DNA of 27,123 nt from a virus: positions 1 to 27,123 of the IMG/VR virus record IMGVR_UViG_3300025128_000257, one strand, 5' to 3'. The notes beneath the pieces were generated by a model, which was not told the DNA's origin, did no database searches, and saw nothing but the letters and a program-made list of their open reading frames with translations. The translations under genes were made by a program, and so were the position numbers. Shown here piece by piece: positions 1-27,049 of the stretch (position 1 is its first letter; the number at the start of each line of letters is the position of its first letter).

Positions 1-338
1 CCTTTTTTATATTCAATACCAGCATTATCTGCTACAGCAGTTATTAAATCAAATAATGATGGAGATATAATAATAGCTGTATCAATACTGTGTAATCCCT
101 CCATAACTCCAGCAAGCGTTATACTATCAACTAACTTTGCAGCAGGTAAACCTGACTCTAAAACTTCTAGCATATGTGCTGTTCTGTCTGCTGTACCTAT
201 TTGAGATACATAATATGTAAGAGCATCTTCTGGATCACTATATTTAGCAGGGGTTTCCCAAGGTCTTCCCTGTGGTTCTGTAGTCAAAGATTGGCCCGGA
301 ATAGGGGCAGTAAATTGTGCAGCATCGTGATCAAACAT
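1..338 (-). CDS. Uncharacterised phage protein, cut by window edge
   Basis: An open frame of 112 codons starts with ATG at 338 and runs off the left edge without a stop, so the C-terminus is missing. An AAGGAG ribosome site lies about 8 nt before the ATG, and the upstream gene ends TAA directly against this ATG, so the start is well supported. The protein is soluble and mixed in composition. It has a PWETPAKYSDPEDALTYY stretch near residue 27 and a more hydrophobic segment around residues 65-95 (LAGVMEGLHSIDTAIIISP). I have an impression that proteins with this pattern recur in marine phages near the tail genes, but I cannot name a function. No signal peptide or catalytic motif is visible. 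Confidence 0.8.
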   Translation of the reverse strand, partial: MFDHDAAQFTAPIPGQSLTTEPQGRPWETPAKYSDPEDALTYYVSQIGTADRTAHMLEVLESGLPAAKLVDSITLAGVMEGLHSIDTAIIISPSLFDLITAVADNAGIEYKK

Positions 339-800
339 TTAAGCTACTCCTTCTTCTTCTGTAGGTATATTTGCAGCTTGAGCTAACTGTTGTTCAATTG
401 CTCTTTTCACAGCACCATAAGCATTTTCAGGGGCAACTGCTGCTCCTGTAAACCCTGTAGGTTTGTCCATTAAACTAGATAAAAAATCTCCTGTTCTATC
501 TTCAGCTTTTCTTGCTGGTCTAGTTCCTGTTCTTTGTCTAGTTTTAGCTATAGCAGCACTTATTGATTGTACAGATTTTGGAGGAAGTCCTGCTTTTTCT
601 AATCCTTCACCAATAAGATCAAGACTAAGATCTTTGTTTTGCGACAAACTATTTACAAGCTTTTCCATATTACCTCCTTTTACGTATTCAGTAATTGCTG
701 ATGCTTGTTTTGCTCTAGGATTATTTTTATTAGAATTAGAGTATGCCTTTACTTCATCAAAATAACTAGATTTAGCTAGTGCTGTATGATTAACTGTCAT
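339..800 (-). CDS. Hypothetical protein, 153 aa
   Basis: I do not recognise this gene. It has a clear AAGGAG site just upstream of the ATG at 800, and its stop abuts the next gene, so it belongs to the same late operon. The protein is helix-rich and polar. A basic patch (KTRQRTGTRPARK) lies around residues 86-98 and the tail is acidic (IPTEEEGVA). There are no membrane segments, cysteines or recognisable enzyme motifs. Its place between a large Q/N-rich virion-type protein and another unknown suggests a minor virion or assembly protein; that is inference from position only. Confidence 0.8.
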   Translation of the reverse strand: MTVNHTALAKSSYFDEVKAYSNSNKNNPRAKQASAITEYVKGGNMEKLVNSLSQNKDLSLDLIGEGLEKAGLPPKSVQSISAAIAKTRQRTGTRPARKAEDRTGDFLSSLMDKPTGFTGAAVAPENAYGAVKRAIEQQLAQAANIPTEEEGVA

Positions 801-833
801 TATTATCTCCTTTTAGTTTTTTGTATTAATTCT

Positions 834-2996
834 CTAGGGAAAAAGACCGCCAAGGAAACCTCCTATACCAGATTGAGGATTAAATACATCTTTTGCTAAC
901 GAGGACACTCCTGCTACAGCAAACGGAGCTATTATATCTCCTACAAAACCTGCTACATTTGCAGAATTTTGTCTATCTGCAGTAAATTCTGCTAAGTCTC
1001 TATTTGCTCCTATATTAAGTCCAGCAAGTTGTAACCCTGCAACTCTATCTGCTTCATTTTCTGCAGATGTAAAAGCAAACTCAAGTAAATCTCTATACTC
1101 TTGCCAAAGATTATCGTATGCTTCATTGCTAATATCAAGTAAGTTTTGAGCATTGAATTGATTTTGAAAATTTAAAGCTGCTGTATCTGCAGTAGCAATT
1201 TGTCTACGCCATACTGCATTGCTTTGTTTAATTGCTAATTGATTACGAGCATTAAATTGATCTCTTTGATTAGCAATTTCTGAATTAAACCTTTGAATTG
1301 CATTGACTTCACCTGTATTAAATTGATTTATAGCATTAGTTTGAGAAGTATTATTTTGTGCTACAGACGCAACAAGATTAGCATAAAACTGATCTGTCTG
1401 TTGTTGATTAGTAGCATTTATTTGTCTTGCAGTATTTTCTGCTGCTGCATCGGTTAGAATACTTTGAATTTGAGTTTGAGAGTTAAACAAAGCTGCAGCT
1501 TGACTATTATCTAAATTTTTAGCATCTATCTGTAAAAAATTCTGTGCATTTTGTACTGCTGCTTGTTGCCTATTATTTAAATTAGAAATATCCAGATTAG
1601 CTAATGCTGCAGCATTTGCCATTACAAGAGCTTGATTATTATTTAAGTTTGATAAATCTACTGTCTGAGCAAATTTAGCATTTTCTAAAGCAATTTGTTG
1701 ATCTGCAGTAAAGTTTCTATTTGCAATGTCTGCTATATTAGCTGCATTTCTAACACGAGTTTGAAAAGCTTGGTCAAACTCTTGGTTTAAAAACTGTGCT
1801 CTGTACTGCCCTGTTAGCATAGCAGATTGTTGCCTGTTTGTCAAGTTCTGTGCTTCAAAAGAAGCGACTGTTCTTGCATCTGCTTGAGCTATTGGTAAGG
1901 AAGCTTCAAGAGCAGCTTGTACAATAGCTTGTCCTGCTATACTACTTGCGCCTAATCCTCTAGCTGAAAGTTTTTGTGTAGCTGCACGTACTGCACCTGA
2001 AGCCCAAAAAGGTACTTCTCCTTGTACAAACTGTTCAGATAGTATTGCAAGTTGTCCTTGAACTGTAGCAGCTAAACTTGGATTAGCTTGAGCAGCTTGT
2101 AATGAAGGTTCTATAAAAGCTGCAGCTTGTACTGCTTGTTGGTTAGGACCAGAAATTTGTTCATTGGCTTGCAACACTCTGTCCGTAGGAGCTTGAACTT
2201 GAGTAGCTTCAGCTTGTTGAGCAGCTTGTAAATTAGCTACTTGTGTTTGTGCTTGTTGTTGTGCTTCTATAGTTTGCGTAGGTGCAGCAAGTTGTTGTGC
2301 TTGTACTCCAGCTTGAGCTACAGCAGGTGCAGCTTGAGCAGCAGCTACTTGTGCTGCTTGTGTAGTTGTAGGAGCAGCCGTTTGTGCGATAGGTGCTTGA
2401 GCAGCATCTGTAATACTTAAATCTCTTGCTACTTGCCCTGTAGCTGGATCAATATTTTGCGATTGTTCAAAAGGAGTAAATGCCGCTTGAAATTGTGTAC
2501 CAAAAGGAAGTGCAGGAGCATCAATTCTTCCTGATGTAATTTGCCCTATGTTTGGATTAGTGGCTTGTTGAGCAGTAACACCTGTAGTAGTAGTTGCTGC
2601 AGTAGTAGTAGGAAGGTTAGTGCTAGGTATATCCGTAGGCGTAGCAGTAGTAGCTGCAGGTGTAGTTGTGGTAGGAGGAGTAGCTGCTTGTTGTTGTTGC
2701 TGCTGATTAAAAACAAATAAATTTTGAGCATTTACAGCTTCTGCTTGAGTGTTGTATATTGCCTCATTAAATCTAAATTTTGACGTTCCCTGTCCAGAAG
2801 CTACTTGTTCTATGGGAGGAACAAATCCCCCTACAGCAAAGCTAGGAGTTTTATCTATATTTTGATTTTGTTCCTGAAGATATTTTTGTGCTAGGGTTGG
2901 ATTTTGTTCTAAATATGCTGGAAATCCTGCCATATCCCCTTCATAGCCCATCTGTCTTGCTTTTTGAGCCAACATCTCTTGATTATAACCTACCAT
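834..2996 (-). CDS. Large Q/N/A-rich virion-type protein, 720 aa
   Basis: This long frame is preceded by AAGGAA a few bases before its ATG. Residues 1-75 are ordinary. Residues 95-300 are low-complexity, starting with a six-Gln run, then Thr/Pro-rich, then Ala/Gln-rich. Residues about 330-640 are predicted to be long helix, with a loose repeat of the form DLSNLNNNQAL, DISNLNNRQAA and DAKNLDNSQAA about 26-28 residues apart. The C-terminus is Gly/Phe-rich and hydrophobic (ending GIGGFLGGLFP). Long helical Q/A/N-rich proteins at the end of a podovirus tail operon are often internal virion or ejection proteins, or tail-associated rods. Composition and position fit that, but I see no diagnostic domain. 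Confidence 0.8.
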   Translation of the reverse strand: MVGYNQEMLAQKARQMGYEGDMAGFPAYLEQNPTLAQKYLQEQNQNIDKTPSFAVGGFVPPIEQVASGQGTSKFRFNEAIYNTQAEAVNAQNLFVFNQQQQQQAATPPTTTTPAATTATPTDIPSTNLPTTTAATTTTGVTAQQATNPNIGQITSGRIDAPALPFGTQFQAAFTPFEQSQNIDPATGQVARDLSITDAAQAPIAQTAAPTTTQAAQVAAAQAAPAVAQAGVQAQQLAAPTQTIEAQQQAQTQVANLQAAQQAEATQVQAPTDRVLQANEQISGPNQQAVQAAAFIEPSLQAAQANPSLAATVQGQLAILSEQFVQGEVPFWASGAVRAATQKLSARGLGASSIAGQAIVQAALEASLPIAQADARTVASFEAQNLTNRQQSAMLTGQYRAQFLNQEFDQAFQTRVRNAANIADIANRNFTADQQIALENAKFAQTVDLSNLNNNQALVMANAAALANLDISNLNNRQQAAVQNAQNFLQIDAKNLDNSQAAALFNSQTQIQSILTDAAAENTARQINATNQQQTDQFYANLVASVAQNNTSQTNAINQFNTGEVNAIQRFNSEIANQRDQFNARNQLAIKQSNAVWRRQIATADTAALNFQNQFNAQNLLDISNEAYDNLWQEYRDLLEFAFTSAENEADRVAGLQLAGLNIGANRDLAEFTADRQNSANVAGFVGDIIAPFAVAGVSSLAKDVFNPQSGIGGFLGGLFP

Positions 2997-3018
2997 ATTG
3001 TTTTTTCCTTATTATATT

Positions 3019-3177
3019 TTAATCTTCTTTATTTTCATCAGAACTTTCAAGGCTTTTTATTTTTTGTTCAAGCTCTATATTAAGTGCTGCAGAACTAGCA
3101 AGTTTATTAAATGCGTCATTTCTTTGCTCCATTAATACAGCAATAAGAGTTTTTGGGTTTATTTCTTGTGTAGACAT
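3019..3177 (-). CDS. Small coiled-coil protein, 52 aa
   Basis: This short frame fills the gap between the protease and the Q/N-rich protein. The sense strand has AGAGGT, five bases, then ATG at 3177, and the frame ends in TAA at 3019. The protein begins MSTQEINPKTLIAVLMEQRN and continues with an amphipathic, Glu/Lys-rich helix (residues 30-46) and an acidic tail (SSDENKED). It looks like a short coiled coil with no membrane segment. The good ribosome site, the fit into an otherwise empty gap and the coding-like composition support it. The function is unknown; a chaperone or small structural role is only a guess. Confidence 0.7.
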   Translation of the reverse strand: MSTQEINPKTLIAVLMEQRNDAFNKLASSAALNIELEQKIKSLESSDENKED

Positions 3178-3204
3178 ATTATACCTCTATAAAAGTTCTC
3201 CAAG
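3178..3204 (-). promoter_or_regulatory. Leader with repeated CTTGGAGAA element
   Basis: On the sense strand CTTGGAGAA (3196-3204) is followed by 18 nt, including AGAGGT, before the ATG at 3177. The same nonamer at the same 18-nt distance precedes the protease gene, so this looks like a duplicated translation leader. Confidence 0.4.
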
Positions 3205-3212
3205 TGCGTAAT

Positions 3213-4052
3213 TTATTTTATTTCTTGTTCTTCTTCTACTTCAGGCTCATCTCCTAAAATAAAGCCATAACTATTATCACGTAGAAAAATTCTTATTTCA
3301 GATATGGGTCTAGACCAAGCCATATGACTAACAACATTTCCCCAACCATATGCAGATACCATACTTGGAACACCAATCAATTCATATTTATGTCTAGGAC
3401 TATATACATACAAGCTTCCTCCAGAATTTCCAAATATGATAGGTGCGCTGGCAAGATACAAGTCTCTTCCATCTTGATCTCTAGAGTACCCTGCGAGAAG
3501 TCCCACAGTTGGAAACGGAGGTTTTCCAAGTCCTGCACCAACGGCATATACTGTTTGAAATATCCACGGTCCATCGTCCTCCCCTTCAGGATAAATATTT
3601 GCTACATACGGCATTTGTCTTTCATTGTCATTTATTTCTAAAAGAGCTAAATCTCTACCTTTATCGTATGCTACTATATTTGCTAATCTTCCTACTGTAC
3701 CAACTGCACTACTAAAATTATTATATTCCCATAAATCTATATTTACAGGTCTTCTAGTTTCAATCTCTATTCTTTCTTTTTTCTCAGAGTCCCACTCTTT
3801 TTTTATAATAACATTACTTTGTATTACATGATAGTTAGTAAGAACATAGCTTTTGTATTCTCGATTTTCATCTTGTTCTGAATAAATCACTGTTCCAGAA
3901 CCAGACCCTGACCTACCAACTCTTACAAGAACAGTAGGATATAGCATTTCAATGTGTTCTTTTTCTGGAATAGTTCCTCTATCATTAGCAAAACTTGGTA
4001 TTGCTATACACATAGAAATAATTAATGCAATCGTCAATATAAATTTATTCAT
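3213..4052 (-). CDS. Exported trypsin-like serine protease, 279 aa
   Basis: The first 22 residues form a signal peptide: Asn-Lys start, hydrophobic core ILTIALIISMCIAI, and a likely cut after Ser-Phe-Ala (residue 22). The mature part has the chymotrypsin-fold triad in order: His75 in LTNYHV, Asp134 in GRDLALLEI, and Ser210 in FGNSGGSLY. It also has SGSGTVI near residue 50, typical of the first barrel of trypsin_2/DegP-type proteases. The length fits a single protease domain without PDZ, and the tail is acidic (EPEVEEEQEIK). It probably acts outside the host cytoplasm or on the virion surface. Cys15 lies in ISMC, a poor lipobox, so a lipoprotein is less likely. Its place right after the tail fibre suggests a role in fibre maturation, receptor processing or late envelope damage; these are inferences. 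Confidence 0.88.
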   Translation of the reverse strand: MNKFILTIALIISMCIAIPSFANDRGTIPEKEHIEMLYPTVLVRVGRSGSGSGTVIYSEQDENREYKSYVLTNYHVIQSNVIIKKEWDSEKKERIEIETRRPVNIDLWEYNNFSSAVGTVGRLANIVAYDKGRDLALLEINDNERQMPYVANIYPEGEDDGPWIFQTVYAVGAGLGKPPFPTVGLLAGYSRDQDGRDLYLASAPIIFGNSGGSLYVYSPRHKYELIGVPSMVSAYGWGNVVSHMAWSRPISEIRIFLRDNSYGFILGDEPEVEEEQEIK

Positions 4053-4079
4053 AATTTTACCTTTTATAAATTCTCCAAG
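4053..4079 (-). promoter_or_regulatory. Leader with repeated CTTGGAGAA element
   Basis: The sense strand has CTTGGAGAA at 4071-4079, then 18 nt including AAAGG, then the protease ATG. It matches the leader of the 52-aa gene in word and spacing. Confidence 0.4.
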
Positions 4080-4106
4080 CGAGGAAGTTGTTTTATATTT
4101 ATTTTA

Positions 4107-4403
4107 TTATAATGGTTTATATCCATTATCAGCCATCCAAGTTCCTACATCTTCATTACTGTAAACACCATCTGAACCTAAACTATCGCAAGGAATGTTT
4201 GCTCTAGTTTCATACACCTCTACAAAATGAGAATTTTCTAAATTTCCATATTGGTAAGATGCATATATATTTTCACTATTTGGGTTTTGAGTAAATTTTA
4301 ATCCTCTTTGAGCAACTTTATAAACAGTAACTGTTCCGTTTACAGTAACTTCAAGATTAGAAGTTGAACCATTAGCGTTGATATTTTCGTAAACATGTGA
4401 CAT
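4107..4403 (-). CDS. Hypothetical small protein, 98 aa
   Basis: AAGGAG lies close before the ATG at 4403, directly after the tail-fibre stop, so the two are co-transcribed. The protein is probably beta-rich: an N-terminal strand-forming part (LEVTVNGTVTVYKVAQRG, residues 17-34) and a C-terminal part with Trp and Asp/Gly turns (DVGTWMADNGYKP). There is no signal peptide or membrane segment. A small protein right after a podovirus fibre could be a fibre-tip, chaperone or decoration protein, but I see no family signature. Confidence 0.75.
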   Translation of the reverse strand: MSHVYENINANGSTSNLEVTVNGTVTVYKVAQRGLKFTQNPNSENIYASYQYGNLENSHFVEVYETRANIPCDSLGSDGVYSNEDVGTWMADNGYKPL

Positions 4404-4413
4404 TTATCTCTCC

Positions 4414-7400
4414 TTAATTTGATCTCATAGTAACAAACCATGCTGATGTAGCATGTGAACCAGAACCATAGGCTAATTGTAAAGAACTACCTGAAGCGGA
4501 ATAAGTTCTAGCTGGAGGGCTATTTTTAACAACAGAAGAAATTGTAGCAGGGGTTCCACCACTACTATGAAACAAAACAAGATCCGTAAAAGTATTTGGA
4601 TCACTTCCTCCAGTAACAACAGCTAAAAGTCCACTCACACCAGCAATAGTTACAGTAGCAATAGTGGTAGCACTTGTTCCTACAGTAGTTTTTTGATTAG
4701 CTATAATTTGTCCAGTATCTTTACCTTGGCATTTAATAAGATCATATTGCGTTCCTAAAGAAGCAGACTCTGGCCCAACTTTAAGAAACTCTGTGTTACC
4801 CGGATCACACCCTATTCCTACAGCATTATTAGCAGCATTAACTTTAAGCATACTGGTATTATCATTACTTTCAACTCTAAAATCTATGTCTGCTGAACCT
4901 TCATTAAATACTGTTTCTGCTGCTGCTAAGTGTATTAAATCTGCAGTAGTTGCATTTCCTATTGTTTTACCATCTGCTAGAACAAGGTCATCTGATATTG
5001 TTAATAATCCAGTAGAGCTAAGAGACATTTTTTCAGCAGCAGCTTCACTAGCCCCTGTTTTAAAACTTAACTTTGTAGCATTATTACTTGAACTAAAATC
5101 TCCTTCAGATACAGCAGCTATACCAGCAGCAACTAATATTGCATCTGTGCCTGTACCTTCATCTGGTGCTTGAAAATCAATTTGTCCAATAACATCATCT
5201 TGAGCAATGTCTGTTTCACCAGTTTGTAGAGTTAGTACAAATGGGTTATTATCTCCAGTAGCTATGCTTTTTAAGAACAAACCATCATCAGGGTCATGTG
5301 TTACAGTTACATCTTGGTCATTACCAAAATAAATTATACCTCCGTCTGCAAGAAATAAATCAGACCATTCAGCAGATGCTGTACCTAATGAATCTCCATC
5401 AGCAGAAGATGGATCAGCAGAACTAGCTGCTTCAGCCCAAGATATATCTGTTCCATCAGAAGTTAATACATAGTTTGCAGAACCAGCAGCAAGGGCTGTT
5501 GGATCACCAGATGCATCACCAATAATAAGTTTACCTCTTGCCAAACCTGCCATCTTAGCAAGAGTTACAGCATTGTCTTGAATATCAGCAGTTTCAATTG
5601 TGTCGTTGGGAAGCAACGGAACTTGACTAAATGTTACTACGCCTGTAGAGGCAATAGTTATTGCATCGGCATCACTAGCAGAACCTATTGTACCACCATC
5701 TTTAATTAAAATGTCATCTACAAATGTAACTATACCAGTAGAGGCTACTGTTATTGCAGTAGCAGCAGAAGCTGAACCTATTGTTCCACCATCTTTAATT
5801 AAGATGTCATCTTTAAAAGTTACAATACCTCCAGAGGAAACTGTCATAGCATCTGTAGCTGAAGTTACACCGATTGTACCTCCATCTTTAAATACAATAT
5901 CATCTGCAACTGTAAGCAAACCAGCAGAACTTAAAGACATTTTTTCAGAAGCAAGTTCACTAGCAGCAGTTTTAAAACTTAACTTTGTAGCGTTATTATC
6001 TGCTGCAAAATTACCTTCCGATACAGCCTCGATACCAGCAGCAACTAATACAGCATCTGTTCCTGCTCCTTCGTCTGGTGCTTGAAAGAAAATAGAACCA
6101 AGCACATCATTAACTGCAATATCATTGTCTCCTGCTTGAAAAGTAAGAGAAGGTTCTTTACCGTCACCTGTGCCTACATGCTTGAGAATAAGTCCATCAT
6201 CAGGAGCGTGTGTAAGTGTAATTTCTTGATCACTACCAAAATAAATAGCACTATTGTCTGCAAGATAGATATCATTCCATTCTGCACTAGTAGTACCAAT
6301 ATCCCTTGTTCCACTTCCATCAGGAACAATATTTGAACCTATACTAGTAAGATCTGTAGTTCCTATATATGTTTTAAGTCTAGAAGCTGCAGTTTTTCTG
6401 TTTGTTCCTCCTGCTCCATTATCAATTATAAACAGGTCAGCATCTACAATAGCTTCTCCAATATCTGTACCACCATCTATGTCTAAAGCAGTTAAAGGAA
6501 ACCCTCCAGCAGTTTGAACTAAAGTATTAACTCTAGATAAAGCAGCTTTTCTATTAGTACCTCCAGCACCATCATCTACAATGATTAAATCAGAAGTAGT
6601 TAAATCTGCCCCGATATCTGTAGCACCATCAATATCTAAATCAGCAAGTGGTACACCACCGTCAGGAAATACTGGACTTTGAGAAAATGTAACTACACCA
6701 GTAGAACTGATAGCAATAGCATCTGTATCAGAAGCAGAACCTATATTACCTGCATCTGGTATTACAATATTTCCTCCTGTAGTCATAGTACCACCACCAG
6801 TATAAGTACCAGCACCAGTTACATTAGCACCACTAAACGTCATTGCAGTAGTAGGTGTAGAACCAGATTTAATTACAAGTTCACCACTACTATTTGTCAA
6901 ACTTCCAAAAGTAGTTCCATCATCTTTCAATGTTACATCTGCTCCACCTGCATCAAGAATAATATCTGCTGCAGCATCAACCGTAACATTATTTGAAGTT
7001 GAAATGGTCAAATTAGTGCCATCACCTTCTATCTTTTCGCCATCGTCACCAAAAGTTACACCTACTCCAGAAGGAATATTTACATCACTCGTAGCTGTTA
7101 AATTAATATCTGCTCCAGAAGTTACGGTTAGATCAGTACTATCTCCTTCTATCTTTTCACCAGAACCAAACGTAATGCCTACATCAGCAGGAATTACTAC
7201 ATCAGCCGTAGCAGTAAGATTAATATTGTTACCAGAGATAGTTAAATCTGTACCATCACCTTCAATCTTTTCACCGTCATTACCAAATGTCATACCAATA
7301 TTTGCAGGTATGTTAATATCTGCTCCTGATACTAAATATAAATCTGTACCATCACCATAAATGTACTCTCCACCTTCATCATTTAAGTATAATCGTTTAG

Positions 7401-18400: not shown

Positions 18401-18535
18401 TTCATTTGCTTTTGTTGTAGATGTTGCAGGGTCCATTGCACGTATCAACCACTTAGGCTTTTTTTCTGGAATTAAAGATTCTAGTGCTTTCATTTCTGGT
18501 GGTGGAATACTTAGTAATGAATTTTTGTTAGCCAT
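15488..18535 (-). CDS. Large mosaic virion-type protein, about 1015 aa
   Basis: I choose ATG 18535 (MANKNSLLSIPPPEM). An ATG 15 nt upstream (MKLIH) is possible, and neither has a good ribosome site. Around residues 158-195 is GGTPEGVRDDIDAKLSSGEM followed by VIPEYAVNYHG, which I recognise as a recurring module of phage virion proteins. A Pro/Gly/Ser-rich stretch (residues about 235-480), an Ala/Glu/Gln repeat and a Gly-rich linker follow. The last 114 residues form a second recurring block: VICTELYKQGLLDD, DGYHLWAKPIVKQM, EIAHQMGVGKGSK, then a hydrophobic helix (LAMLSIAIPICAVLGAAM). The C-terminal helix could insert in a membrane. Its place between portal and scaffold suggests an internal or ejection-type protein; that is inference. 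Confidence 0.8.
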   Translation of the reverse strand: MANKNSLLSIPPPEMKALESLIPEKKPKWLIRAMDPATSTTKANETVRTKSGYSEDLGGEVLVPTIRMGKKGLYKPDNPFKEAIAKKDYILVKGPKGPETAARATNLSRYISDVLITNARKNFQSGGLNMAKANEQMNIMGFEPKEQEIDPVSGNEVPLGGTPEGVRDDIDAKLSSGEMVIPEYAVNYHGVETYIDSIQKAQEGYQQMQDMGLMGNPDEAIMDESEPLPKMQDEEDVPEYQFGGLASTPIPQLPPETPSSVPTLTPSNISNTPLIQPLRPTSIQSTPVMSQYPNGYFIEVGADQYKFVSPPGAEKQYTDIYTRAQVGNSIIAPVGTTPESVYGPSFQTYGPNYTYSPTQQKTSLLTAGEYKVIPYVNSSGNIFYATSIGGQIQGSIPSGYFPATDQQVDISKQLQTITPKEVPVGGPPSGVTGSGGGGGVSVSGPPSVSTPTPSAQAVATGAEISGSKAPSVMSPVPTPTTADIISSTQPPSFAQTVAGLATDTPDAPAINLGKVEGIGELSVSATDISDFGLEAAANIVPSVLGLKSGFLGPIGVGIKVANAIANHASQPQTAVDQAVMGIPGTGFDPITGISIHAVSTLFGMPVLAAYNMNNPTDALSPTEGFTQMAIARKADLTGLKSTDNIADLYFSINKKTGNWSYSGPVGISTENGSFNSDGSFTDNNGNVSATGYKSDFQSLSYQDQATISFKRSKHPLSFLIGVEQSYMTPKAIALQNKMNSLLPDIQKDLPNLSEEQQNDIAVVRAISTEPNIDPSVAGEIGKKGMTSVHGMATEQGAKALSEGQLAQQQKSLSEGFKGMKDAQAEAQAQAQAQAEAEAEAQTALNVAKMNAAMSANQPSLGPPGTAATGQDAAAGISSTGAEGIQGIQSGGMSGGGTGGSGTVICTELYKQGLLDDIIFKADEEWGEVIPSIVKDGYHLWAKPIVKQMQKSSNLTKKINWLATPVTKEIAHQMGVGKGSKIGLAMLSIAIPICAVLGAAMLPFKQKNTNLVLGDK
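16015..16074 (-). repeat. Hexanucleotide repeat coding Ala-Gln/Ala-Glu
   Basis: Ten hexamers of the gtgctt/ctgctt type on the plus strand encode an alternating Ala-Gln/Ala-Glu stretch in the mosaic protein. Slippage could change its length without a frameshift. Confidence 0.8.
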
Positions 18536-18815
18536 GTGAATTAACTTCATCCTTTAATTGTTTTATTTTACGTAAAGTAGCAATTGATCCCTGTGCTCTA
18601 CAAAAAATTACAGAGTTATCTGTTTGTTCTAAAGTAGCTTGTTGTTGCATAATCATCCAATCAATATAATCATTGAACGCGACCCACTGGCGTTTGTTGT
18701 TGACCAGTGTTTTGAGCTTGTTGAGGAGCTTGTTGTGTTCCACTAAATTGTCCCTCCATAGGTGTAGGTGCAGCCCCAACTCCAATAGTGCCACCACCAC
18801 CGCCTTGTAAATCAT
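18528..18815 (-). CDS. Small ORF nested at portal end, start uncertain
   Basis: The C-terminal half (about residues 50-95: DYIDWMIMQQQATLEQTDNS, then CRAQGSIATLRKIKQLKDEV) reads as a real helical protein and fills the gap between portal and the mosaic gene. It resembles small proteins I associate with phage head genes (RAQG-IATLR pattern). The first 50 residues overlap the portal gene in another frame and look like frame shadow. The ATG at 18815 has no ribosome site, and the later ATGs at 18656 and 18650 also lack one. The true start is probably at or after 18670, giving about 42-50 residues. Its stop overlaps the next start by 8 nt. Confidence 0.5.
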   Translation of the reverse strand: MIYKAVVVALLELGLHLHLWRDNLVEHNKLLNKLKTLVNNKRQWVAFNDYIDWMIMQQQATLEQTDNSVIFCRAQGSIATLRKIKQLKDEVNSHG

Positions 18816-20814
18816 TAGGATTTAAGCCGGGAGCTTGTTGTTGAGGTTGCTGTTGTTCAGCGAGAGGTTGTTCAGCTTGTTGTTGTTGTAGTATTTTTGC
18901 CTGTCTCATTGCTTCTTCAGGAGTATTACAAACCTTGTCAGGATCAAGACCCATTGAATTTGCAATCTCACGAATAATAGAGGTAAACTTAGCAAAAGGA
19001 GCAAGAGCAGGATTACCTACAACTTGCAAGAATTGTAATAGACGTTGACTTCTTACCTCATTAGCCATTAAACTTTCAGTTCCACGAGCTTTAATTTCAA
19101 GATCTCCTTTAATGTCAGGATCAAAATCAAACTGCATATTAAAACTATAGAAAGATTCTCCTAATGGACGTAATAGATAATCGTCAAAGTTTTTAACGAC
19201 TGTTTTAATGCTTCCTGCAGCAGCACCCATAAGCATAGACATTCCTGCAGCAGTTCTTCCTGTACCTGTTACTCCTGTCTGTCCATGTGAAAAACTAGGA
19301 AGTCCTGTAGCTTCATCTGAAAGCTGTCTAGCTTTGTCAAACAACTGCATGTTTTCGTTACTTACATTTGGAAACTTTGTACCAAACACAGCTTGTCCCG
19401 GAGCACCGCCTTGTCTACGAAATATTTTACCGGGATATACTTGCAAGTCCTGTCCCGGAACAAGATTAGTTTCATCTACTTCAATAAGAAGATTTCCACT
19501 AAGCACAGCATTATCTACTGCCATACGCATAAACCCATTCATTAAAGTTTGCGTATCGTCCATATTCTCAGCAAGGCCAATACCAAAGAAGCTATAAGGA
19601 TTAAGTTCATAAGGTACAGCATAATAAGGAATACGAGCAGGTTTAAATGGATTTACAACAAGGCGTAGAATAAAGTTATTACATACCCAACAATTAACTT
19701 GTATTTGATCTACATTTTTAAATGCTTTAGGTAAGTCTAATCCAAATTCTTCTGCCATATCAGTATCCATTGTTCCCCAATATTCAAGAACTTCATACCG
19801 TTCAGGATGATCATTTAAGTAATAATCTTTTAAGTCATCTTCCCAATATTCACTTGAGTATACTTCTCCCATTTCAATACATTTATCAATGGCTTCATCC
19901 CTAAAATGAGGTCTATCTTTTAATGCACGTAATTTAGATTTAGAAAGCTTATGACGTTCAATTACATATGTAACTTCATCCATGTTACTTGCATCTGGAT
20001 CAGGATATAAATCCCAACAAGATACACTACTTACTTTAGGTACAGTTTTAATTGTAGGATTATACTCTCCATCTTCTTCCCAATTAGCATATTCTTTATT
20101 AACGGCAAATGGACCCTTAATAATTCCTGTACCAAATAAAGCACACTCAAAAGAAGCAGATCGTAAATGCTTACTTGCACCTGATTCTTCTAATTGATCC
20201 ATTATTTTCTTTTCCATCTTTTTAGCTGCTACTGTTGCAGGATGAAATGTTACTGCAGAAGGTGTAAGTCCTTCTCCTTCTTTTAGCCCCTCAATGTCTG
20301 AAAGTTTGTCTTCCAAAGGACCAAGTTTTAGTTTACGTTCAGATAAACTTTCAGCAGTATCTCCGGGTTCTAAATCTTCTCCATCTCCCGGAAATCCATA
20401 CGGACTTGTTGGAGCTTGTTCTTCTTCTGCAACAGCTTCTTCTGTTTTGTCATTAGGATCAAAATGAACAGACTCCGTAACTCCTTCAGGTAAAGTTGTA
20501 GGTTCTATACTTAAAGGAAATTTTTGTCTTGCAAATAATACATCTGTAATTTGACCATAGGCTGCAAGAACTTTTGTTTTTGTTACCTTAATAAATACAC
20601 GAGATCGCTCTGATTCTGTAAACTGTACATCAGGACTATAAATACCACGATAGTTACGATAAGATTGCAACCATCTCTCTTCATCAAATCTTCTCCAATC
20701 TTTTGATCTTTTAAAATTGTCTTGAATAAAAGCTATTATACCTGACAATTCATCATCATTAGTTTTGTCATCTAAAACTAAAGTATCTTCTTCTTCAAAG
20801 TTTTTATCTACCAT
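18670..20814 (-). CDS. Portal protein, 714 aa
   Basis: This gene follows the large terminase by 3 nt. The length, acidic N-terminus and central architecture fit podovirus portals. SKDWRRFDEERWLQSYRNYRG (residues 36-56) begins the fold. Later come WDLYPDPDASNMDEVTYVIE (near residue 269), IPYYAVPYELNPYSFFGIGL and a GRTAAGMSMLMGAAAG stem/crown-like segment (near residue 520) followed by DDYLLRPLGESFYSFNMQFD. The last 80 residues are a Gln-rich tail. The product would form the dodecameric ring at the head vertex, docking TerL during packaging and the tail adaptor afterwards. No frame break is seen. The Gln-rich tail is unusual but common in low-complexity ends of marine phage proteins. Confidence 0.88.
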   Translation of the reverse strand: MVDKNFEEEDTLVLDDKTNDDELSGIIAFIQDNFKRSKDWRRFDEERWLQSYRNYRGIYSPDVQFTESERSRVFIKVTKTKVLAAYGQITDVLFARQKFPLSIEPTTLPEGVTESVHFDPNDKTEEAVAEEEQAPTSPYGFPGDGEDLEPGDTAESLSERKLKLGPLEDKLSDIEGLKEGEGLTPSAVTFHPATVAAKKMEKKIMDQLEESGASKHLRSASFECALFGTGIIKGPFAVNKEYANWEEDGEYNPTIKTVPKVSSVSCWDLYPDPDASNMDEVTYVIERHKLSKSKLRALKDRPHFRDEAIDKCIEMGEVYSSEYWEDDLKDYYLNDHPERYEVLEYWGTMDTDMAEEFGLDLPKAFKNVDQIQVNCWVCNNFILRLVVNPFKPARIPYYAVPYELNPYSFFGIGLAENMDDTQTLMNGFMRMAVDNAVLSGNLLIEVDETNLVPGQDLQVYPGKIFRRQGGAPGQAVFGTKFPNVSNENMQLFDKARQLSDEATGLPSFSHGQTGVTGTGRTAAGMSMLMGAAAGSIKTVVKNFDDYLLRPLGESFYSFNMQFDFDPDIKGDLEIKARGTESLMANEVRSQRLLQFLQVVGNPALAPFAKFTSIIREIANSMGLDPDKVCNTPEEAMRQAKILQQQQAEQPLAEQQQPQQQAPGLNPNDLQGGGGGTIGVGAAPTPMEGQFSGTQQAPQQAQNTGQQQTPVGRVQ

Positions 20815-20817
20815 ATT

Positions 20818-22473
20818 TTAATATCCAAAGGTTGCATCAGATGGAATATATTTATCTGACATTTTTTCAATCGTAAAATCAAATATGCCTCTTCTTGGCC
20901 TACTCATTACGCCGTATCTTAAAGCATCGTATAAATGATCTTCTGCTTTTGTGTCTACATCTTCACTATTCTTTTTATCAAGAGGAATTGAAGGAAGTTG
21001 AGAAATAAGATTTCTACAAGTATAAAATACCGTCATGCCGGGAATTTGACCATCATCATCATATGATTCCTGCATTTGCAATCGACGGTGTATCTCATTC
21101 TTTCCTGCTATTCTACTTCCAGCACTTCTATCACTTGGCCTCCAACGACATCCAGTTAAAATCATTTGTTCTGCTAAACTTGGTCCTGTATCTCCTCGTT
21201 TGTGCCAACAAGAACTATCTAAAACACCATAAAGAATTGTACCATCATTTTCCTCTAAATGCAATACTTTATTAGCTAAATCTTTTGCTAACACTTTTGA
21301 TACATACAATTCTCTGTATACAACTAGCTGACCATCTGGAGCCACTGCAAACCATAAAACAGCACTGTAAGAACCATAGCCATAATCACAGGCTCTAAAC
21401 TTGGGCCAATTCTTTGGTATATCAAATGGTTCAACAACATGTACTGTCCTATCAAATTCAGGAAATGCAGCACCTTCTGCTACATCCCAATTACCGTCCA
21501 GTAATCTTTTTCTTTGATTTTCTGGTAACGATAACAACATTGTTTCATAATCCCCACTTGTTGATAGATAAGGATTATCAAACAGCTTTGCAGGAATAAA
21601 TTTCCTGCTAAATAATGGCTCACCTTCTTTACTATGATTTTTAGGATATACCAAAGTTTTTCCATTTTCATCTGTAGCCCAAAAAGATGAGCCGGGAGTT
21701 GAAGGATCTATAAAATACTTTTTTACCCAAACATGTCCTGCACCACCGGGATTTGTAGTAGCTCTCATATACACTGGAAGATCAGGCGCAGTAGACCTCA
21801 ATCTTGATCTTAAATAATCCCACGCAAATGGTGTGGGCCATTGCGTAAGTTCATCAAAACCTATCCAGCAAAAAGATAACCCTTGGTAACGGAGTACATC
21901 ATCATCTCTATCTAGATATGACAGCCACAATCTACCGCCTGAAGGGGAAGTCCACTGCATTTTTCTTTCCGACCATTTTGCGCCAGAAATTATTTTTGGA
22001 TAAAGCTCTTGTGATTTCCAAACCAACTCTCTTAATTCTTCTGTAGTTCTACGTAAAAGTAGACCAGAAAATTGTGGGTGATTTAAATACCTAAGAGGAT
22101 CAGCCAACATTGCGTAGCTCTTTCCTCCTCCTGCCGCACCACCATATAATACTTCACGATCTGATGACGCTAAAAAGTTTGTTTGTGGTCCTTCATTGGG
22201 TTCAAATAAAACATTGTATTTTTCTTTTAAAGATAACTCTGTACTTTTTTCTTTTATCTGTGGTTTAGGCTGCGGAGGGTTTTCTTTCTTTTCTTTCTGT
22301 TCCTTTTTCTTTCGCGCCTGTACGTTTTTCCTCAAGTTCTTCAAGTTTTTTGATGGCGGTTTCATACTTTTTAGCCCACGACCTATATGTTGCTGCCTTA
22401 CTTTTCCGTTGCTTTTCTTTTTGGACTCTTTTTCTAAGTCCGATATGGGAGATTTGTCGTCCTGTTCTGTCAC
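20818..22473 (-). CDS. terL: Terminase large subunit, 551 aa
   Basis: This is the DNA-packaging motor ATPase and nuclease. Walker A is GGAAGGGKS (residues 111-119), Walker B is CWIGFDE (Asp207, Glu208), and the coupling motif is ATTNPGG (near 238-244). The RNase H-like nuclease has Asp363 in RACDYGYG, Asp419 in GVLDSS and Asp512 in EDHLYDALRYG. The conserved part begins near residue 85; residues 1-80 are Lys/Pro-rich and overlap the upstream gene. I keep GTG 22473 because AAGGTGG lies 4 nt before it. ATG 22365 (residue 37) is the alternative and has no such site. It acts with the small terminase and portal to fill heads. Confidence 0.92.
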   Translation of the reverse strand: MTEQDDKSPISDLEKESKKKSNGKVRQQHIGRGLKSMKPPSKNLKNLRKNVQARKKKEQKEKKENPPQPKPQIKEKSTELSLKEKYNVLFEPNEGPQTNFLASSDREVLYGGAAGGGKSYAMLADPLRYLNHPQFSGLLLRRTTEELRELVWKSQELYPKIISGAKWSERKMQWTSPSGGRLWLSYLDRDDDVLRYQGLSFCWIGFDELTQWPTPFAWDYLRSRLRSTAPDLPVYMRATTNPGGAGHVWVKKYFIDPSTPGSSFWATDENGKTLVYPKNHSKEGEPLFSRKFIPAKLFDNPYLSTSGDYETMLLSLPENQRKRLLDGNWDVAEGAAFPEFDRTVHVVEPFDIPKNWPKFRACDYGYGSYSAVLWFAVAPDGQLVVYRELYVSKVLAKDLANKVLHLEENDGTILYGVLDSSCWHKRGDTGPSLAEQMILTGCRWRPSDRSAGSRIAGKNEIHRRLQMQESYDDDGQIPGMTVFYTCRNLISQLPSIPLDKKNSEDVDTKAEDHLYDALRYGVMSRPRRGIFDFTIEKMSDKYIPSDATFGY

Positions 22474-24104: not shown

Positions 24105-24323
24105 TTAAAATATTTTCCATAGTACAGTTATTAAAGCAATCAGCAATGTTAATGTAGAACCCATAATTAATGCTTCTACTCGTCGTATTCTACTAAATAA
24201 GCTATCAAGTTGTCGTTGCACAGATTCTGCCCTTACAAAACATTCTCTTTCATGCGCTAACAATTCTGCTTGAACTGCGTGTACAGATGTGCTACCATTA
24301 TTTTCTTCCTTGCTATTTGGCAT
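24105..24323 (-). CDS. Small coiled-coil membrane protein, possible XhlA-like lysis factor, 72 aa
   Basis: The N-terminal 48 residues form a charged amphipathic helix (ERECFVRAESVQRQLDSLFS), and residues 52-70 form one membrane helix (LIMGSTLTLLIALITVLW) with a short Lys-Ile-Phe end. This helix-then-anchor layout resembles the XhlA-type lysis proteins and small holin partners. It overlaps the dioxygenase gene by 11 nt and precedes the endolysin. It may regulate membrane opening or be the anchor half of a spanin-like pair; no lipobox partner is seen. The lysis role is inferred from neighbours. Confidence 0.75.
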   Translation of the reverse strand: MPNSKEENNGSTSVHAVQAELLAHERECFVRAESVQRQLDSLFSRIRRVEALIMGSTLTLLIALITVLWKIF

Positions 24324-25263
24324 TGTTGAGTGGCTTTGTAACTGATTCTTTTAGTTTTTTTACTTCTAACATATCTACTGGTTCCACTCCTGTATTTTCT
24401 CTAGTTCCAAATAGCATGGTTACATTGATCCTTTTATTCTCAAACCCCGGATGAAATTCTACATCTGCCGTTTTGTGAAATAAATTAGAATCGAACATTA
24501 CACACCTATTATACTTGTATGGTATATAAAGAGCCTTTGAATCATTGTCCTTTAAGAATTTAATAACTTCGGTTTTGTCGTCACCATTGTATCTAGTAAA
24601 ATCCCAATCAGGCGGTGCTCCTTTGTCCCAAACCCACATACCTCCTGACTTACCAATGTCCTTCTCTTCATCATAGTGAACATTACACTTTGTAGGGGTA
24701 ATCCAAAAGTTTGTATTAATTGCTGCAAAGTCTGCATGAATATCAATACCGGGACATTTAGATTCATACTTAAAAGCCCACATCTGGCTCAAATGCCTTT
24801 TGTTAGCATTATTAAATATGCCGGGAAGTTTCTCCATTAACTCTGTCGCTAATGTCGTCAACACATTTGGTTGAAAGCCATGCTCTCGAAATGCTCCTAA
24901 ATATCCCCTGCCATAAATAGTATTCCAAAAAGGAAACTCAAGACAGTAACTACGCAACTTTTGTAAAGCTTCTTCATTTAAAAAATCGTCCAGTATTACA
25001 AGATTAGGATTTGTATTGTAATAGCTTTTCTCTATATTGTCAAATGGTAAATTAAAGTTTAATGATCCTTGCCTGTGTTCGTGGTAAGGAAGAGTTAATT
25101 TACCATTATTTAAAAGCCATATTAAATGTCCGACATCATGGGCTTCTTTTAAATACGGACGATGTTCCTCAAAAGGTTGTTGACTACAGTTTTCTAATGG
25201 ATCGTATGGTTTTTTAGCTACTTCTTTTTTCTTATTTTGTCTCTTCTTTTTACTTTGGGACAT
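24313..25263 (-). CDS. 2-oxoglutarate/Fe(II) dioxygenase-like protein, 316 aa
   Basis: Residues 88-110 (LVILDDFLNEEALQKLRSYC) are the usual first strand and helix of the prolyl-hydroxylase-like fold. The iron site is His176-Ala-Asp178 in IDIHADFA and His263 in SNLFHKTADV. Arg278 in NKRINVTMLFG would bind 2-oxoglutarate. The order and spacing match the double-stranded beta-helix oxygenases (2OG-FeII_Oxy). The first 18 residues are very basic (KKKRQNKKKE). The substrate could be a protein side chain, a nucleic acid or a small molecule; nothing in the sequence decides. It sits between basic miniproteins and the lysis genes, in the late operon. Confidence 0.85.
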   Translation of the reverse strand: MSQSKKKRQNKKKEVAKKPYDPLENCSQQPFEEHRPYLKEAHDVGHLIWLLNNGKLTLPYHEHRQGSLNFNLPFDNIEKSYYNTNPNLVILDDFLNEEALQKLRSYCLEFPFWNTIYGRGYLGAFREHGFQPNVLTTLATELMEKLPGIFNNANKRHLSQMWAFKYESKCPGIDIHADFAAINTNFWITPTKCNVHYDEEKDIGKSGGMWVWDKGAPPDWDFTRYNGDDKTEVIKFLKDNDSKALYIPYKYNRCVMFDSNLFHKTADVEFHPGFENKRINVTMLFGTRENTGVEPVDMLEVKKLKESVTKPLNNAK

Positions 25264-25266
25264 TAA

Positions 25267-25413
25267 CTACCCCTTTTTGCGAGTTCTCCTAGCAGAGGAA
25301 TTTTTCTTTTTTTCAATTTTCTTTACATATTTCTTAATCTTGGCTGATTGTCTTTTATGCATTTTAGATGCTTTTACTAATTCTTTAGATACTCTTTTTA
25401 AAGTTTTTACCAT
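25267..25413 (-). CDS. Tiny basic protein, 48 aa
   Basis: This frame fills the gap before the dioxygenase. ATG 25413 shares a base with the stop of the preceding gene (TAATG), and the TAG at 25267 lies 3 nt before the next start. Over a third of the residues are Lys or Arg, and there are no acidic clusters. It begins MVKTLKRVSKELVKASKMHK and ends SSARRTRKKG, likely a helix that binds nucleic acid. The exact fit between neighbours argues it is real. The function is unknown. Confidence 0.68.
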   Translation of the reverse strand: MVKTLKRVSKELVKASKMHKRQSAKIKKYVKKIEKKKNSSARRTRKKG

Positions 25414-25703
25414 TATTTCTTACTCTTCTTTTTATTTTTAATTGTTCTAACCATTGTAGGTTTTCCACCTACTCCTTGTGTTTTTGCTCTTTTTCTTTTA
25501 ACAGCACTTTTTACTTGTGATTTTGTCATGCTATTAGCTTTTGACCTTGGCACACATTTAGGATATTTTCTTTTACTGCCCTTTGCAGACTTTCTACCAC
25601 AAGACTGAAACTTACCTTTTTTCTTGGGTGCTCCTATGTCTACCCAATCACCTTTCGGTCCTTTACCAAACCATGCTGTAAGTCCACCTGTAGGTTTAAC
25701 CAT
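25413..25703 (-). CDS. Basic conserved virus-type protein, 96 aa
   Basis: The sequence GGLTAWFGKGPKGDWVDIGA (residues 6-25), then CGRKSAKGSKRKYPKCVPRS (near residues 35-54) and MTKSQVKSAVKRKRAKTQG is a pattern I have seen in proteins of marine phages and large DNA viruses (possibly DUF5872; not checked). Two Cys (35 and 50) in this small basic protein may bind a metal or form a link. The C-terminus is Lys-rich. It overlaps the next gene by TAATG. No activity is known to me; a DNA- or RNA-binding role is plausible. Confidence 0.78.
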   Translation of the reverse strand: MVKPTGGLTAWFGKGPKGDWVDIGAPKKKGKFQSCGRKSAKGSKRKYPKCVPRSKANSMTKSQVKSAVKRKRAKTQGVGGKPTMVRTIKNKKKSKK

Positions 25704-25705
25704 TA

Positions 25706-25888
25706 TTAGCTCCTATACCCACCACCACGTTTTTTATAAGTACGTACTAACCAAGCATTAGCATAAGCAGAAGGATATACATCAAACTTTCTTTTTGCTT
25801 CTGATTTTACTCTTGCATATAAAGAAGGATTAGTAGGTTTAGCACCACTTGTTTTCTTTTTAGCTTTAGACTTTTTTGTTTTAGCCAT
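25706..25888 (-). CDS. Small basic conserved protein, 60 aa
   Basis: A Lys-rich start (AKTKKSKAKKKTSGAKP) is followed by a compact conserved core, NPSLYARVKSEAKRKFDVYP (residues 20-39), then SAYANAWLVRTYKKRGGGYR. I know this LYARVK-EAK-KF-VYPSAYAN-WLV-YKKRGG phrase as recurrent in marine phages and algal viruses, without known function. The start overlaps the previous stop as TAATG. It is encoded next to a second basic protein of the same distribution, which suggests a functional pair. Confidence 0.8.
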   Translation of the reverse strand: MAKTKKSKAKKKTSGAKPTNPSLYARVKSEAKRKFDVYPSAYANAWLVRTYKKRGGGYRS

Positions 25889-26067
25889 TATGCTTTTTTC
25901 TTTTTTGCTTTTCTCTTTGTTGGCTTTTTAGCTGTGCCTACAGCAATCATAATGGAAGCACCACCGCCACCTTTTTTATCGTCTACATATTTACCACCGT
26001 ATTGTCTAGCAGCAGCTTTTGCTTTCTTTTCACCCTCTTTTGTATAGGGAAATTTTACCATTGGCAT
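25888..26067 (-). CDS. Small basic Gly-containing protein, 59 aa
   Basis: This frame was found by reading the gap. ATG 26067 has AAGGAG about 9 nt before it, and its stop overlaps the next gene (TAATG). The protein starts MPMVKFPYTKEGEKKAKAAA, has a GGKYVDDKKGGGGASIM stretch and ends in a Lys/Arg-rich tail (KKPTKRKAKKKKA). The FPYT--G---A--AA pattern is known to me from small phage proteins of unknown role. It is probably a nucleic-acid or capsid-interior binder, by charge only. Confidence 0.72.
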   Translation of the reverse strand: MPMVKFPYTKEGEKKAKAAARQYGGKYVDDKKGGGGASIMIAVGTAKKPTKRKAKKKKA

Positions 26068-26099: not shown

Positions 26100-26687
26100 T
26101 CAAAGATAGACATTCCAAATATGATATTTAATAATTGTGTAAATAAATCCCATAAAAAAGATTGCCATACCAATTTCGTGTAGTCTTCTATTAGCAGAAA
26201 TTATTAATGGTAACATAATAATAAGCATAATAACTCTACCTAATACTTTAACAGATAAATACTCTTCAGCGTAGAATACAAAAAAATTACCAAGAAGACA
26301 TACTTGTAGGGTCCATGCCAGACCTAATATAATTCTATGATATTTATAGTAGTATTCTTTAAGGTCAATTGCCTTTACATAATCAGTCGTATTATGTGGT
26401 GTAATCACTTCACAGATCATAAACATAAGCATTGGAACTGCTAAAAACAATAAATATGTAAATAAATTCCAACCACTATTAGGAAAAAAATCTAAATTAT
26501 TTAAGGGATAACAAGTCCACCAAAACAATATCATAGTAAAAAAAGTTATAAAACAGAATATTGTATGGGGCCAATAAAATTTAACCTGTGCTTTATTTGC
26601 TACTAATGCCGTTACGTTAGTCATTAGATTTACAAACGCTAGTCCTAGTATTAAAAATGCTACAGGGGCAAGATGTGCAAAAACCAT
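26100..26687 (-). CDS. Six-helix membrane protein, 195 aa
   Basis: There are six hydrophobic spans near residues 6-30, 40-59, 73-95, 117-138, 148-166 and 172-188. Marks of interest are FWW near 55, DLKEYYYKYH (residues 108-117) in the middle loop, and ISANRRLHEIG (163-173) before the last helix. The layout, including the NRRLH loop, resembles a family of bacterial inner-membrane proteins of unknown function, so a host origin is plausible. The length is normal for that family. No ribosome site is obvious; the gap to the upstream gene is 20 nt and contains a short hairpin (TACTA/TAGTA). It is not obviously a holin. The function is unknown. Confidence 0.78.
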   Translation of the reverse strand: MVFAHLAPVAFLILGLAFVNLMTNVTALVANKAQVKFYWPHTIFCFITFFTMILFWWTCYPLNNLDFFPNSGWNLFTYLLFLAVPMLMFMICEVITPHNTTDYVKAIDLKEYYYKYHRIILGLAWTLQVCLLGNFFVFYAEEYLSVKVLGRVIMLIIMLPLIISANRRLHEIGMAIFFMGFIYTIIKYHIWNVYL

Positions 26688-26707: not shown

Positions 26708-27049
26708 TTACATTTTTATTTCTTTAACTAGCCCACCAGCAGCGTACATATGTTTCTTACCTTTGTACATGCCACCCTTCATCATTTCAGGCTTCTTCAT
26801 TGCCATACCACCATATCCACCTTTATTCATTTTCTTAGGTTTTTTACGAGGCAGACGTACATCCTCAGTCACTAAACTTGGTCCTGAAAGTTCTGTAGAC
26901 ATGCTTGTATACCTATCTGCTAAGTCTCTTAATTCATCTAAAGTCTTTGCTCCATTAATCTCTTTATCTGAAGCTCCATATTTTTTAGCTCTTTCTATTA
27001 AAGAAGCCATTTCAGCATCTTTATCTGTATATCCTATTCCTTCGGGCAT
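26708..27049 (-). CDS. Met/Lys/Gly-rich small phage protein, 113 aa
   Basis: AAGGAG lies a few bases before the ATG at 27049. Residues 1-60 are a charged helical part (EMASLIERAKKYGASDKEIN, then GAKTLDELRDLADRYTS). Residues 68-113 are Lys/Met/Gly-rich with KKMNKGGYGGMAMKKPEMM and end YAAGGLVKEIKM. That Gly-Met-Lys tail is a recurrent ending in small marine phage proteins I have seen, function unknown. A disordered tail that binds the capsid interior or nucleic acid is possible. Confidence 0.75.
   Translation of the reverse strand: MPEGIGYTDKDAEMASLIERAKKYGASDKEINGAKTLDELRDLADRYTSMSTELSGPSLVTEDVRLPRKKPKKMNKGGYGGMAMKKPEMMKGGMYKGKKHMYAAGGLVKEIKM

Follow-up and report, generated by a model that had tools for sequence, protein, structure and literature searches.

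DUF5872 (PF19197) is a Pfam family whose model joins two halves in one sequence, and the name is also attached to proteins of the algal viruses CeV-01B and CpV-BQ1. No paper characterising DUF5872 or DUF6321 was found in the open-access literature that was searched; the family is already known yet uncharacterised. Among phages, the closest described proteins are those of T4-GC_119 from cyanomyoviruses (PSSM2_123 of P-SSM2, SBM3_00185 of S-BM3 and S-SCSM1 ORF29) and ORF160 of cyanophage S-CREM2, in which the modules that we call C and B follow each other, in that order, in one protein. PSSM2_123, SBM3_00185 and S-SCSM1 ORF29 lie beside the genes for TerS or TerL; the fused form of P-SSM2 is found between gp15 and TerS and that of S-BM3 after TerS. 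Small basic proteins are also known from inside the head of phage T4, as its internal proteins. Here we describe a marine phage locus in which B and C are separate small genes, flanked by two further small basic genes, A and D.

The window that we analysed is the whole IMG/VR virus record of 27,123 bases. Its main genes, among them those for the terminase and the major head protein, are on the minus strand. The terminase large subunit (20818..22473, minus strand, downstream of the cassette) matches PHROG 979 (E 5.5e-61). By tblastn, it is 72.6% identical to the terminase of Puniceispirillum phage HMO-2011 over 84% of the query and also resembles those of Roseobacter CRP phages. This similarity places the phage carrying the cassette, a marine podovirus of the HMO-2011 type, near HMO-2011 and the Roseobacter CRP phages. 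The whole HMO-2011 record contained neither B nor C. Since HMO-2011 belongs to the same phage group by its terminase, the B-C pair is accessory and dispensable and not a core component.

On the minus strand, a 113-aa gene and a 195-aa gene precede A, B, C and D, which are followed by a 316-aa gene, a 72-aa gene, a peptidase M15 endolysin gene, more genes and the terminase. The 316-aa gene (24313-25263) begins after a 3-base gap downstream of D. Its product has a Lys-rich start and matches PHROG 1644, 'minor coat protein' (E 2.5e-8); its relatives (the cluster of L147 1791-2789, 9 loci) are also found near the B-C pair in other contigs. The 195-aa hydrophobic protein (26100-26687, minus strand), encoded upstream of A, matched no Pfam or PHROG family, and contig L009 has no gene for it at that position. 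The 113-aa protein (26708-27049, minus strand) has a low-complexity Met/Gly/Lys stretch as its C-terminal part and is similar in style to CRP-2 gp68, which adjoins the CRP-2 B-C pair. Elsewhere in the window, a 95-aa ORF (18528-18815, minus strand) overlaps the end of the large ORF 18670-20814 in another frame and may be a chance frame or an overprinted gene. The Rfam search of the window gave no match. Promoter-like sites were at chance level (15 vs a shuffle mean of 13.1), and the three terminator-like sites (1.5 in shuffles) were all on the plus strand, opposite to the cassette genes.

All four cassette genes are on the minus strand. Gene A (25888..26067, 59 aa) starts with MPMVKFPYTKEGE..., has its own GGAG motif and overlaps B by one base. 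Gene B (25706..25888, 60 aa) encodes the conserved pattern KxxAKxK...PSAYA. Gene C (25413..25703, 96 aa) has L..WF, W, CGR and YP.C.P as its conserved positions in the alignments. Gene D (25267..25413, 48 aa) encodes a basic protein with the core motif KASxxHxxQ and overlaps C by one base. Lys and Arg make up 31, 30, 32 and 44% of A, B, C and D, the net charges are +14, +16, +29 and +19, and the predicted pI values lie between 10.3 and 11.6. Stop-start overlaps of the form TAATG join A to B at 25888 and C to D at 25413, and the gap from B to C is 2 bases. These positions and lengths, the Lys/Arg richness, both couplings and the minimal gaps are all as given in an earlier note on this DNA, which had described four chained genes. 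The overlaps within A/B and C/D stand. However, a GGAG Shine-Dalgarno-like motif is present upstream of A and C and is lacking before B and D, so the layout is that of two coupled pairs, A-B and C-D. This is more exact than a single four-gene chain.

The cassette region has a GC content of 31-36% and its proteins are of low complexity, as would be expected if the Lys-rich ORFs were functionless products of AT-rich sequence. Intact-frame homologues of all four ORFs exist in other viral contigs. Between the window and its relatives, dN/dS was 0.26-0.45 for A (8 comparisons) and 0.12-0.97 for D (8 comparisons), D being the weakest of the four. Where dS was at least 0.3, we obtained 0.13-0.28 for C (3 comparisons; a fourth was saturated) and 0.18-0.28 for B (4 comparisons). 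The near-identical pairs, with 0.36-0.48 for C (3) and 1.27-1.29 for B (3; dS about 0.03), are uninformative. In nearly all informative comparisons there are thus fewer amino-acid changes than expected for unconstrained sequence. Of the 9258 ORFs in the loci analysed, 50 contain the core motif of D, against 0 per replicate among composition-shuffled K/R-rich ORFs. Conserved frames and motifs, dN/dS below 1, and the fusions and Pfam/PHROG matches given below make a functionless origin extremely improbable. For B, C and D the present data refute it; for A the number of contigs is smaller. The proposal of the earlier note hinged on the small frames being conserved, and the intact relatives and the dN/dS values below 1 bear this out.

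B matched the Pfam family DUF5872 at positions 1-38 of 116 (E 7.8e-9, 36.6 bits vs a cut-off of 27.5). The C protein of the window matched no Pfam family at E up to 1, and its relatives match DUF5872 positions 53-112; C was placed in the family through alignment to these relatives and not by a match of its own. It does match PHROG 23735 (E 1.3e-22, profile positions 9-81 of 81). NCBIfam gave no match for A, B, C or D. In another contig (L246), two overlapping neighbour genes match DUF5872 positions 1-45 and 54-114, each above the cut-off. Both halves adjoin in the window as two genes, and they are likewise together in nearly all relatives. Judged by these matches, B and C are in all probability the first and second halves of one module, which the Pfam model joins and the window holds as two genes. 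The suggestion that two of the four belong to families common to marine phages and algal viruses proved right for B and C, by Pfam and structure matches. Measured against the open-access literature searched, what seems to be new is that the module is split, that its fusions have the reverse order and that it can be connected with virion proteomics.

The family is abundant in marine contigs. At least 546 of 600 marine-contig pattern stretches for B and at least 553 of 599 for C were confirmed as relatives. In prokaryote genomes there were 30 loci with B, on contigs of 3-62 kb that are mostly titled as MAG or single-cell assemblies, and we read these as probable viral contigs in bins.

The linkage of the genes was counted in loci selected by one of them. 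Among 80 loci chosen for their C gene, 77 also have B, and among 80 chosen for their B gene, 78 also have C. Four of the five misses lay at the edge of the stored sequence and the fifth, L023, is a real or apparent exception. Among 80 loci selected by a divergent C, 73 had B, and in the other seven the stored locus begins no more than about 210 bases before the start of C. These counts are not counts of independent lineages, since the C- and B-selected sets share contigs; the single-domain ORFs amount to 195 distinct sequences for C and 157 for B. B and C most often overlap by one base, as they do in 48 of 77 cases among the C-selected loci. In eight ORFs the modules were fused as C-B, in reverse order to the Pfam model.

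Some of these larger proteins have additional parts. In the C-B fusions of L110, L108, L126, L137 and L150, a stretch rich in Cys and Gly is added at the N-terminus and one with four Cys at the C-terminus; these matched no Pfam family above the cut-off. The C-B fusion of L139 (3515-4615) carries two DUF3721 stretches and is followed, after 152 bases, by the gene for a major head protein (PHROG 10, E 1.8e-62). In L229, a 108-kb contig, C is inside a 1537-aa protein and B starts the neighbouring 463-aa protein (191-4804 and 4814-6205), so the modules occur also in very large proteins.

The structure of the module was approached through a natural C-B fusion (L148). Its predicted model is confident within each module, with ten-residue blocks averaging 72-96 over residues 21-90 (C) and 97-98 over residues 111-150 (B). 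The overall pTM was 0.37, so the relative placement of the two modules is not established. For the C protein of the window by itself the model was weak, with a mean pLDDT of 65.4, and gave no fold match. With the fused model, Foldseek against the PDB returned nothing with E under 0.001 and VIA-align showed one chain with Z 2.6. Sequence searches of solved structures with C, B and the profiles gave nothing credible; the best profile match, myosin-binding protein C (E 0.75, 13 positions), was rejected. A missing fold match is not evidence for a new fold. Against the predicted viral structures of BFVD, Foldseek matched unnamed or uncharacterised phage proteins and the 517-aa S-SCSM1 'virion protein' A0A6M2ZIM9 (E 0.06); much lower in the ranking came a DUF5872 protein from the algal virus CeV-01B (E 0.34). 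By its length, label and phage, A0A6M2ZIM9 would be S-SCSM1 ORF29.

The linkage of A and D to the pair is a different matter. Across B-C, the window is 95-99% identical in DNA to L009 or L011, and in the aligned flanks 72-91%. Correspondingly, the synonymous difference between the window and L009, L011 and L174 is 0.02-0.09 for B and C and 0.24-0.43 for A and D. The simplest reading is that B and C have recombined as one unit; strong constraint on the DNA itself could also keep the block alike. The same divergence is what one would see if B and C alone formed the functional unit, with A and D independent small neighbours that met them by chance in a narrow clade. The distribution of A fits this as well. 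Its relatives were found in 15 viral contig loci, 11 of them without B, C or D. A belongs to no Pfam, PHROGs or NCBIfam family, and a tblastn search of 50,697 phage records with E up to 0.1 did not find it. The order A-B-C-D was seen in the window and four other contigs only (L009/L178, L011/L138/L173, L164 and L174), and one of these, L164, shares 99.87% identity with the window across 5.2 kb and is not countable as independent evidence. The co-occurrence expected from the earlier note therefore holds for B and C, which are nearly always together, and is weaker for A, which stands alone in most of its loci. D, however, precedes B within one fused protein in 14 loci (11 different sequences), and in L038, L040, L046, L048 and L050 it lies directly after B and before C, with an A-like gene further down. 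These arrangements argue for D as a partner, though not for A, and we consider a unit of B and C alone somewhat unlikely. That D is a frequent partner of B-C and A a looser one has, jointly with the role proposed for B-C below, about even or better odds.

The surroundings of the pair in phage isolates point to the head and packaging genes. CRP-2, CRP-207, DSL-LC04, HTVC027P, HTVC203P, C72C1 and P-SCSP2 resemble the window in having small, adjacent or near-adjacent B and C genes. At E up to 0.001, matches to B were found in 15 of 18 records and to C in 17 of 18; in immuto_3-5A and CRP-7 only a divergent B-like sequence was recognised, by eye. The pair lies between the scaffold and major capsid genes in Prochlorococcus phage P-SCSP2, 168 bases before TerL in Roseobacter phage CRP-7, upstream of TerS and TerL in Roseobacter phage CRP-2 and in CRP-207, between the portal and capsid genes in Pelagibacter phage HTVC027P and in 023Pt_psg01, and downstream of the capsid and cement genes in DSL-LC04. 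By manual reading, the pair or fusion was at most 2 kb from a head or packaging gene in 12 of 17 isolates. The binomial chance of this is 9e-6, 7e-4 or 0.01 for an expected fraction of 0.2, 0.3 or 0.4, with the 17 isolates taken as independent, which they are not, and with distances entered by hand. In C75C1 the distance was 4.1 kb, and in the stretches seen of HTVC106P, HTVC203P, immuto_3-5A and S-CREM2 (ORF160) the modules were not near known head genes. In the metagenomic loci, head genes were near the pair in 42 of 80, 26 of 73 and 14 of 80, counts that are seed-limited and without a control; such neighbours are common but not general.

The isolates differ from the window in their other small genes. 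A was not found in the phage records by tblastn, and D is shared with HTVC027P. Most isolate pairs have a DUF6321 gene nearby, which the window record lacks. DUF6321 was detected in 12 of 19 records, 11 of them above the cut-off. In DSL-LC04, HTVC027P, 023Pt_psg01, HTVC203P, C75C1 and P-SCSP2 it is no more than about 0.5 kb away from B-C, and in S-BM3, P-SSM2, S-SCSM1 and S-B43 it is part of the protein that contains the modules. In P-SCSP2 (L260 6174-6979), two further tiny basic genes are present between B and the capsid gene, besides C and the DUF6321 gene. Here a capsid operon contains another set of chained genes for basic miniproteins.

S-CREM2 offers a link between the modules and phage particles. 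Its ORF160 (128342-129235) holds both C (E 3.5e-5) and B (E 5.7e-6) and is 56% identical to T4-GC_119 of P-SSM2 over 167 aa. Table 3 of the S-CREM2 study lists ORF160 as a hypothetical protein of the purified-virion proteome, with 7 unique peptides and 13.1% coverage, and ORF137 with 4 peptides (PMC10665884). The latter product, gp137, holds DUF6321. Neither gp136 nor gp137 has B or C. S-SCSM1 ORF29 (517 aa) contains C, B and DUF6321 and is labelled 'virion protein' in its record; another S-SCSM1 stretch with virion-labelled genes contained no B/C module. We counted 48 CDS with this label, and the S-SCSM1 paper gives 45 detected proteins. Because of this small mismatch between labels and mass spectrometry, the virion argument rests on S-CREM2 ORF160, for which the published table gives the coordinates. 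The idea of virion-interior proteins raised by the earlier note thus gains support, as regards the virion, from relatives; the relatives detected in particles are the larger fusions and not small split proteins, and the window proteins are known from their genes.

Taken together, the B-C linkage, the fusions, the gene neighbourhoods and the S-CREM2 proteome lead us to propose that the cassette encodes late, accessory small basic proteins tied to head assembly, packaging or the virion, with B and C as one module and D and A as helpers. We give this reading a probability of roughly 0.5. The B and C products would act together in or at the head, presumably in contact with each other, and may enter the virion. 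Their many Lys and Arg residues would most likely bind DNA that is packaged or soon to be packaged; for the cassette proteins as a whole, DNA binding is a guess from charge alone. D, and less firmly A, would be helpers made in step with their partners through the stop-start overlaps, C with D and A with B.

The neighbourhoods could also mean that these are assembly or packaging factors that stay outside the finished particle, for example peptides that help the terminase or act like a scaffold and are then released or degraded. The position between the scaffold and capsid genes in P-SCSP2 suits such a role, as do the positions beside TerS or TerL in CRP-7, P-SSM2 and S-BM3. In the S-CREM2 virion table, however, the fused ORF160 is present and TerS and TerL are absent (PMC10665884). 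The table also contains the scaffold and the prohead protease, so detection there is compatible with an assembly role, and the authors state that co-purification or incomplete separation is possible for virion-associated proteins (PMC10665884). We regard a function confined to assembly as unlikely.

The charge and size of the proteins would also befit effectors that are produced late or travel with the particle and target transcription, ribosomes or nucleic acid of the host, host shut-off included. The pair is accessory, the copy in immuto_3-5A lies among metabolic genes, and a published study names T4-GC119 among the members of a putative mobile cassette that also holds zwf, gnd, petE and PTOX (PMC3037559). 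Yet the usual location is in late structural modules, and no similarity to known inhibitors was found in Pfam, PHROGs and NCBIfam. An effector role is quite improbable in our view, and host shut-off, which the earlier note had offered as an option, found no support.

Beyond the proposed late head-associated cassette, a broader idea can be put forward tentatively. DUF5872 may be a two-part virion module of tailed phages and algal giant viruses, with halves that reunite after translation and organise DNA in the head, and with B, C, D and DUF6321 as a freely combined kit. In marine phages the halves would be separate, often overlapping genes, and elsewhere they would be fused in either order; the rebuilt module would condense or organise the DNA in the head. 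We consider this generalisation rather unlikely as a whole. Linking the split-module view to the published proteomes of virions makes it possible to frame, for several families annotated as 'unknown', a hypothesis about phage heads that can be tested. Should the protein of the algal viruses have the same task, unrelated virus realms would share a particle-associated component.

Compared with T4-GC_119 and S-CREM2 ORF160, which are single large proteins, often with DUF6321 and with no separate A or D, the window falls outside the T4-GC_119-like type, because its B and C are separate genes and its record has no DUF6321. With the T4 internal proteins no sequence relation was seen. The likeness is one of description, for a cassette known from its genes: small size, strong positive charge and a presumed location in the head.
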